From a virus, in the IMG/VR virus record IMGVR_UViG_3300037391_000017, positions 39,415 to 103,414 of that record: a stretch of DNA of 64,000 nucleotides. One strand, written 5' to 3'. Below are positions 54,166 to 61,047 of this stretch, piece after piece. Each line of letters begins with the position of its first letter. Position 1 is the first letter of the stretch. The notes below the pieces were generated by a model that did no database searches, was not told the origin of the DNA, and worked only from the letters and a program-made list of their open reading frames with translations. A program made the translations under genes and the position numbers.

Positions 54166-54208
54166 TTTTCGAATTTCCTAGCCAAAATTCCCTGACTTCT
54201 GGTATCAT
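54163..54208 (+). promoter_or_regulatory. Promoter of the tmRNA gene with conserved upstream element
   Basis: TGGTATCAT (54200-54208) is an extended -10 element just before the tmRNA acceptor piece. Upstream, TAATTTTCGAATTTC (54163-54177) is repeated exactly at 63642-63656 before another extended -10 promoter. In both cases the TAA is the stop codon of the preceding gene. The shared box may be an UP element or binding site. Confidence 0.65.
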
Positions 54209-54210
54209 GT

Positions 54211-54541
54211 ATTAGATGGTCGTAAGCCCTGCAAGGGGCAAAAGGCACTGGTACTGATTTTCAGACAGGGGTTCGACTCCCCTCAGGTCCACCATATCCG
54301 AAGTAACTTCGGGTGTGTTTCGGTGAGTGCTCCACCAAACGGTTTGAGCATTGACCAAACACACCCGATCAATATGGGCCTGCCCCGGTTTCGATGAAGA
54401 CGGTATGGGATGGCAGCCAGCGATCCGAGGGAAGGATGATTCCTCGTTAAACTCCATTCAAAAACATAAACGCTACTGCTCCAAAGGCAATGGCTGCTCA
54501 CGCTTAATTGCGTAGCACAGACCCCGTGGGTCTGTTCCTCA
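54211..54541 (+). ncRNA. ssrA: Circularly permuted two-piece tmRNA
   Basis: The tRNA-like 3' half comes first. Its T-arm is AGGGG-TTCGACT-CCCCT at 54267-54283; acceptor strand CAGGTCC (54284-54290), A and an encoded CCA follow, ending at 54294. After an intervening segment with an 11-bp perfect inverted repeat (54310-54320 and 54357-54367), the 5' half begins at 54376 with GGGCCTG, which pairs fully with CAGGTCC and places a G-U pair at position 3-70, the alanine identity element. GGTTTCGATG matches the conserved D-region. A tag frame ending GCT GCT CAC GCT TAA (stop 54505-54507) could encode ATAPKAMAAHA. A hairpin (ACAGACCC/GGGTCTGT) follows. tmRNA rescues stalled ribosomes. The exact tag start and piece ends are inferred. 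Confidence 0.85.
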
Positions 54542-54554
54542 ACACGGCAAAAGA

Positions 54555-54580
54555 ACCCGCGCAAGCGGGTATTTTTGTTT
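54555..54580 (+). terminator. Intrinsic terminator after tmRNA
   Basis: ACCCGC-gcaa-GCGGGT is a 6-bp GC-rich hairpin with a GCAA loop, followed by ATTTTTGTTT. It closes the tmRNA transcript before the next promoter. Confidence 0.8.
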
Positions 54581-54584
54581 CTGG

Positions 54585-54613
54585 TTGACAATCTGAATTC
54601 CAAAGGCTATTGT
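54585..54613 (+). promoter_or_regulatory. Sigma-70-type promoter
   Basis: TTGACA (54585-54590) and TATTGT (54608-54613) are separated by 17 bp, the standard spacing. The -10 ends ten bases before ATG 54624, so the leader would be only a few bases. Confidence 0.75.
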
Positions 54614-60378: not shown

Positions 60379-60885
60379 ATGGCCTATAAAAATCCAGAGG
60401 ATGCGCGTCGGTATCGCAAACGCTGGTACAAGCGAAATAAGGCAAAGCATATCGCAAACGCGAGAAAGAATACGGACGCCCATCGCTCGATAGTCCAAAA
60501 AGCTCTTGTTGCTTACTTGAAAGAGCATCCATGTGTAGATTGTGGGGAAACAGACATCGTGGTTCTTGATTTTGACCATGTGCGCGGAAAGAAATTGGCT
60601 GATGTCTCCGACATGAAAAATCGTGGTTACAAGCTGGAAACAATCATGCGTGAGATTGAGAAGTGTGATGTCGTTTGTGCCAACGATCACCGTCGCCGCA
60701 CGGCTAAACGAGGACTGCATTTTAAGCACGTGGCACAGATGGTGACTACCACTGAAACTGGATTTGAGATGAAAGGACCGCTGGTCATCACCACACCGCC
60801 AATTGCTAATCATGGGATTGCGACCTCATTTGAATTAGATGGCACACCACGAGTACAGAAAATTGTTCCGAAGACACTCCCGTAG
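60379..60885 (+). CDS. HNH-type endonuclease inside the tRNA array
   Basis: A 168-residue basic protein. Residues about 50-118 form the zinc HNH pattern: HPCVDCGETDIVVLDFDHVR, then CDVVCANDHRRRTAKR. Such stand-alone nucleases are common phage mobile genes and often sit among tRNA genes. The N-terminus is basic (ARRYRKRWYKRNKAKH), suited to DNA binding. The start is ATG 60379 on a leaderless promoter. Its TAG stop lies inside the 5' end of the following tRNA, so the two overlap by 10 nt. Confidence 0.8.
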   Translation: MAYKNPEDARRYRKRWYKRNKAKHIANARKNTDAHRSIVQKALVAYLKEHPCVDCGETDIVVLDFDHVRGKKLADVSDMKNRGYKLETIMREIEKCDVVCANDHRRRTAKRGLHFKHVAQMVTTTETGFEMKGPLVITTPPIANHGIATSFELDGTPRVQKIVPKTLP

Positions 60886-60951
60886 CTCAAATTGGCTAGA
60901 GCCGGGTCTCTAAAACCTGAGATGTGGGGTCGGTGCCCACCGGGAGTGCCA
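60876..60951 (+). tRNA. tRNA with CUA anticodon (amber suppressor), atypical T-loop
   Basis: Acceptor ACTCCCG/CGGGAGT, D-stem GCTC/GAGC, anticodon stem CGGGT/ACCTG with loop CTCTAAA, T-stem GTGGG/CCCAC, G73 and encoded CCA. The anticodon at 60910-60912 is CUA, which reads UAG. The T-loop GTCGGTG departs from the usual TTCRANN, and no base separates D-stem and anticodon stem. It shares no other feature of tRNA-Pyl, such as a short D-loop with a 6-bp anticodon stem. Charging identity is unknown. Confidence 0.72.
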
Positions 60952-60968: not shown

Positions 60969-61047
60969 GCCCTCGTAGCTCAGTCTGGTTCAGAGCGGCG
61001 AATTCTAAACTCGTGCGTCGTGGGTTCGAATCCCACCGAGGGCACCA
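60969..61047 (+). tRNA. tRNA with CUA anticodon (amber suppressor)
   Basis: A standard 79-nt cloverleaf: acceptor GCCCTCG/CGAGGGC, D-arm GCTC-AGTCTGGTTCA-GAGC with GG, canonical T-arm GTGGG-TTCGAAT-CCCAC, A73 and encoded CCA. The anticodon arm is GCGAA-TTCTAAA-CTCGT with U33 and anticodon CUA at 61005-61007; the innermost stem pair is an A-C mismatch. It reads UAG codons. The same specificity as the tRNA 17 bases upstream makes amber decoding a deliberate feature. Confidence 0.83.

Follow-up and report, generated by a model that had tools for sequence, protein, structure and literature searches.

Evidence for a circularly permuted, two-piece tmRNA gene in a large phage, with a tag ending in Ala-His-Ala

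Based on gene models, covariation and comparison with related records, we find that a locus in the DNA analysed here (the window, 64,000 nucleotides, being positions 39415-103414 of a virus contig of 103,414 bases) is very probably a functional, circularly permuted tmRNA (ssrA) gene of a phage. That the phage encodes such a two-piece tmRNA had been proposed from the letters of the sequence, and on the whole the proposal is well supported: the predicted elements are all in place, and ARAGORN, the covariance model RF04321, covariation and conservation agree with each other. The new elements of the case are the soil jumbo-phage lineage in which the gene is found, a probable mismatch with the host, and the tag, which ends in Ala-His-Ala (AHA).

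Identity and parts of the gene

ARAGORN calls a permuted tmRNA (tmRNA*) at 54198-54598 with the tag ATAPKAMAAHA, and makes one tmRNA* call in a control of 9.6 Mb of simulated sequence (first-order Markov, with the window's own dinucleotide composition). The model RF04321 (tmRNA_permuted) matches the window with 52.9 bits (E 1.7e-7 in the 64-kb scan) at a gathering score of 47, a margin of only about 6 bits which is counted against the identification. In the related records L002/L003, L006, L008 and L139, the same model gives 53.8-69.7 bits, all above the gathering score. The older model RF01850 (beta_tmRNA) has an end-to-end match at 54179-54541 of 47.1 bits (E 3e-13 in an 801-base search), which does not reach its gathering score of 84, and the gene is not placed in the betaproteobacterial subfamily. 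Besides the model score, the features of the RF04321 class are found: the CCA part stands before the 5' acceptor strand and coding part with a spacer between them, the acceptor stem is formed across the permutation with G3-U70, and the tag frame has a stop. The original prediction had the CCA end at 54294 and GGGCCTG start at 54376, and the RF04321 match bears out both positions. A second ARAGORN call, a tRNA-Thr (ggt) at 54218-54294, was rejected, for it has no Rfam tRNA match at gathering score and leaves out of account the strand at 54376, which is the better partner. The parts of the locus are the following.

54179..54208, plus strand: weak sigma-70-like promoter match upstream of the gene, TAGCCA-18-TATCAT (9/12 in a consensus scan)
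54213..54294 (start approximate), plus strand: acceptor piece, with P2 strand, variable hairpin, T-arm, acceptor 3' strand and CCA (RF04321, beta_tmRNA, ARAGORN)
54218..54223, plus strand: P2 distal strand GGTCGT, pairing with GCGATC at 54420-54425
54267..54283, plus strand: T-arm AGGGG-TTCGACT-CCCCT (3 of 5 stem pairs change on both sides, 100% paired)
54284..54294, plus strand: acceptor 3' strand CAGGTCC, discriminator A and encoded CCA (7 of 7 pairs with 54376-54382)
54295..54375, plus strand: intervening sequence of 81 nt with an 11-bp inverted repeat inside, variable in length in relatives, expected to be removed
54376..54382, plus strand: acceptor 5' strand GGGCCTG, G3 opposite U70 (4 of 7 pairs change on both sides; G3-U70 invariant)
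54376..54541 (3' end approximate), plus strand: coding piece (the beta_tmRNA match ends at 54541)
54387..54396, plus strand: conserved tmRNA D-arm region, GGTTTCGATG (from the sequence; aligned in RF04321)
54472..54507, plus strand: tag reading frame ATAPKAMAAHA with stop TAA (ARAGORN; conserved in L006, L008 and L139)
54518..54534, plus strand: post-tag hairpin CAGACCC-CGT-GGGTCTG, whose stem covaries
54555..54577, plus strand: intrinsic terminator directly downstream of the gene, stem ACCCGC-GCAA-GCGGGT followed by ATTTTTGTTT, kept in relatives

Several of these parts had been predicted and can be read directly in the sequence, namely the T-arm, the acceptor strand with its CCA and the fully paired GGGCCTG with G3-U70, which is the alanine identity pair. 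The inverted repeat in the spacer is exact (54310-54320 and 54357-54367), and the conserved GGTTTCGATG is followed, as predicted, by an Ala-rich frame ended by TAA. For the promoter match, shuffles average 0.6 such sites in the region, and it says nothing on function. P2 covaries too: 6 of 6 pairs are found in the window and in relatives, the strands in L139 being GGTCGT/ACGACC, and the post-tag stem is CCTTCCC/GGGAAGG in L008 and CTGACCC/GGGTCAG in L139. The motif GATGGTCGT of the acceptor piece is kept in the window and four related loci. At 54224-54243, between P2 and the T-arm side, the window differs from L002 and L008 by an insertion of about 30 nt that forms a different hairpin, and this part of the acceptor piece thus appears free to vary.

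The relatives were found via neighbouring proteins, the tag and protein similarity to isolates, and the covariation set consists of five distinct tRNA-like parts, from the window, L008, L139, L010 and the isolated phage Tunturi_5. In the acceptor and T stems, 12 of 12 pairs are kept in all five members and 7 of the 12 have changed on both sides, a count biased towards structure since pairing was among the guides used to place the 5' acceptor strands (chiefly in L010 and Tunturi_5). In L008 and L139, the position of the strand also agrees with the alignment and with the conserved motif GG-TTCGA. Seven double-changed pairs were reached in 1 of 500 shuffles and the covariation score in none of 500, and all slid pairing registers are far worse than the true register in this set. 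The spacer measures 81 nt in the window, 79 in L008, 36 in Tunturi_5, 35 in L139, 21 in L006 and 10 in L010, with tRNA parts and tag frame retained across this whole range. As the spacer is free to vary in length while its flanks are kept, the 11-bp inverted repeat is dispensable, as expected of a removed sequence. The idea that the spacer hairpin is a repeated mobile element was dropped, for the exact 11-mer occurs only at its two arms within the window.

The phage lineage and known permuted tmRNAs

The 103-kb contig carries genes for a UvsX-like recombinase, a DnaB-like helicase, an endolysin, a Mom-like protein and a homing endonuclease, which support its assignment to a phage, together with many tRNA genes. 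Contigs of the relatives reach 332 kb, and the phage belongs to a lineage of large phages. Among 50,697 phage records, Tunturiibacter phage Tunturi_5 is the nearest isolate; this myovirus has a genome of 309 kb and infects an acidobacterium, and the identity is 44% in UvsX and 46% over 1293 aa in a tail-fiber-like protein (35-46% for tail proteins and UvsX overall). In this genome (PP885688.1), a permuted tmRNA is detected by RF04321 at 157899-158195 on the minus strand with 86.4 bits; it is unannotated and lies in a gap between annotated genes. ARAGORN makes no tmRNA call at this place, and the word tmRNA is absent from the main text of the paper on Tunturi_5. Its tag frame is long and ends in RAFAMAA with three stops in a row, its resume codon being uncertain.

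From this relationship, an acidobacterial host is likely for the window's phage. Acidobacteriota are not known to have any but the one-piece form of tmRNA, the bacterial groups with a known permuted gene being Alpha- and Betaproteobacteria and Cyanobacteria. A mismatch between phage and host in the form of tmRNA is probable, and points to phages as a possible route by which the permuted form of the gene passes from one bacterial phylum to another. As for a bacterial source, neither the tag pattern nor CAGGTCC/GGGCCTG with a 60-90-nt spacer has a match in 84,980 GTDB species, both patterns being exact ones, and more distant sources may still exist.

The gene shows both likeness and difference to the systems already described. 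With Tunturi_5 (PP885688), it shares the permuted form, G3-U70, the presence of a spacer (36 nt there) and the relationship of the phages, and differs in the tag frame just mentioned. With the betaproteobacterial tmRNAs of RF01850 and RF04321, it shares the order of parts, the G3-U70 acceptor stem, P2, the resume region and the post-tag hairpin. Unlike those of RF01850, it scores below that gathering score and has an extra hairpin between P2 and the T-arm side, and the tag is ATAPKAMAAHA in place of the usual AND...LAA. In Bxz1-type mycobacteriophages, the tmRNA has the standard gene order and is one RNA piece. What the window has in common with these phages (listed in PMC4131195) is that the tmRNA is phage-encoded. 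The permuted order, with the tRNA-like part before the coding part, is shared with methylophage Melnitz, where a two-piece tmRNA is described, and with related marine phages (PMC9004378). In Melnitz, the gene has its relatives in alphaproteobacterial ssrA and a link to a glutamine riboswitch (PMC9004378), whereas the gene in the window is matched best, of the older models, by beta_tmRNA, belongs to a relative of a soil jumbo phage and encodes a tag with an AHA end.

On one point the original prediction does not hold, as it expected a permuted phage tmRNA to be rare. Two-piece tmRNAs make up 53 of the 133 distinct phage tmRNA structures from 18,146 phage genomes, 50 of the 53 being marine or aquatic (PMC9004378), and in IMG/VR a single pattern gives at least 120 matching stretches, in nearly all of which, as listed, ARAGORN calls a permuted tmRNA. 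The two-piece form in phages is thus known and not rare. A match in the gut phage MT836032 was set aside, having only the T-arm/acceptor stretch in common and no ARAGORN tmRNA in the portion examined.

The tag and its Ala-His-Ala end

The tag is ATAPKAMAAHA in the window and in L002 with its near-identical records, and AEAPKAFAAHA in L006. L008 and the L139 contig (332 kb) both have ANAPKAMAAHA, and the clade consensus is A-x-A-P-K-A-[MF]-A-A-H-A. Third bases have changed synonymously in six tag codons (1, 6, 8, 9, 10 and 11); His stands in the penultimate position throughout, encoded by CAC or CAT, and the stop is always TAA in this clade. Between the mature coding pieces of the window and L139 there are 113 identical positions, 33 mismatches and 21 gaps, and the tag differs at one residue. 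By these synonymous changes and this conservation, we judge the tag to be under selection. The window's tag can be read as the usual ...AMAA end extended by His-Ala.

The unusual end had also been pointed out in the original prediction, and as an observation it is supported. ARAGORN gives 80 distinct tags for the permuted phage tmRNAs compared, a sample which is not random and in which some long tags may be errors of the program; 72 of the 80 have penultimate Ala and 49 end in LAA, and a penultimate His, or an AHA end, is found only in the three tags of this clade. The sister L010 ends in AAAA and Tunturi_5 in RAFAMAA, so the AHA end is a trait of the clade and not a general one. The Ala-Ala end of the canonical ClpXP degron is thus replaced by Ala-Ala-His-Ala in the window, L002, L006, L008 and L139.

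For ClpX of E. coli, the terminal Ala-Ala is the most important element of the tag, and when the penultimate Ala is changed the KM of ClpXP rises with little effect on Vmax (PMC7652416). From this dependence, weaker targeting is a reasonable expectation, to be read as a comparison with E. coli when the proteases of the actual host may differ. Reduced ClpXP targeting of the tagged proteins is accordingly proposed only tentatively, and their escape from ClpXP is plausible. It is also quite possible that the host's ClpX or another protease recognises AAHA as an ordinary degron, in which case the gene would be a plain second ssrA copy and the fate of tagged proteins would be unaltered. The last residue is still Ala, whose terminal contacts are part of ClpX recognition (PMC7652416), and the presumed host's proteases may not be those of E. 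coli; the weight of terminal Ala-Ala in E. coli, the raised KM and the restriction of His to this clade speak against it. The fullest reading, in which a lineage of large Acidobacteriota phages carries a permuted tmRNA foreign to hosts whose own form is one-piece, and in which selection has made the tag avoid ClpXP, is rather doubtful as a whole. If it were true, infected cells would rescue ribosomes without destroying nascent phage (or host) polypeptides.

Proposed action and further observations

We infer the processing, charging, partners, timing and fate of tagged proteins as follows. The permuted gene would be transcribed as a single precursor between its own promoter and terminator, from which host tRNA-processing enzymes would remove the spacer, leaving the acceptor piece with its CCA at 54294 and the coding piece that begins with GGGCCTG at 54376; pairing in the acceptor stem and P2 would keep the two together. 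The RNA would be charged by the host alanyl-tRNA synthetase via G3-U70. A search of the phage records (mostly fragments, with Tunturi_5 complete) found no gene for SmpB, ClpP or Lon, and for this reason the partners are taken to be those of the host, the RNA depending on host SmpB for delivery to stalled ribosomes. Ala and ATAPKAMAAHA would then be added, with termination at TAA freeing the ribosome. Ribosomes would probably be kept available to the phage during infection, and the tagged fragments, as their tag is without terminal Ala-Ala, would probably be weaker ClpXP substrates than those tagged by the host.

The lack of a recognisable SmpB in the phage records would also suit a decoy, that is, a charged RNA which mainly titrates host SmpB or occupies trans-translation and blocks the host's ribosome rescue and tagging. 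For this there is a precedent in mycobacteriophage DS6A, whose tmRNA consists of the tRNA-like domain only, and a molecule of this kind inhibits the endogenous tmRNA in E. coli (PMC11915505, PMC4131195). We regard such a role as improbable here, for a decoy would not need the tag frame, the TAA and the surrounding structures, all of which are conserved, with synonymous changes.

A non-canonical tag end that is conserved in this clade, one of whose relatives is in culture, leads to a clear prediction, namely that ribosome rescue is separated from proteolysis. For two-piece processing, the cultured Tunturi_5 and its Tunturiibacter host provide a system that can be handled in the laboratory. Partial ssrA copies are common at integration sites. 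That the locus is a decaying relic or attachment-site remnant of a bacterial ssrA carried by the phage, like the partial copies discussed in PMC9004378, is scarcely credible, the gene being complete, furnished with a terminator, retained through compensatory changes in several divergent phage records and under selection in its tag.

Some minor observations were made in addition. The window has a pair of CTA (amber-reading) tRNAs at 60876-60951 and 60969-61047; L139 has two (7297, 7508), and L006 has one with a neighbour read as ctag (11909, 11988). Amber recoding was considered as the reason for the tmRNA and rejected, for the genes are open in the standard code and TAG read as Gln barely lengthens the ORFs; the tag stop of the clade is TAA. 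In L051, L077, L080, L100, L068 and similar loci, permuted phage tmRNAs have long predicted tags of about 24-31 aa, some ending in AV or FA, which are possibly a separate class of phage tags or frame errors of ARAGORN. Upstream of the window (contig 1-39500, L149/L150), there are a cluster of 16 further tRNA genes and a gene whose 1292-aa product contains an Ice_binding domain (Pfam PF11999).
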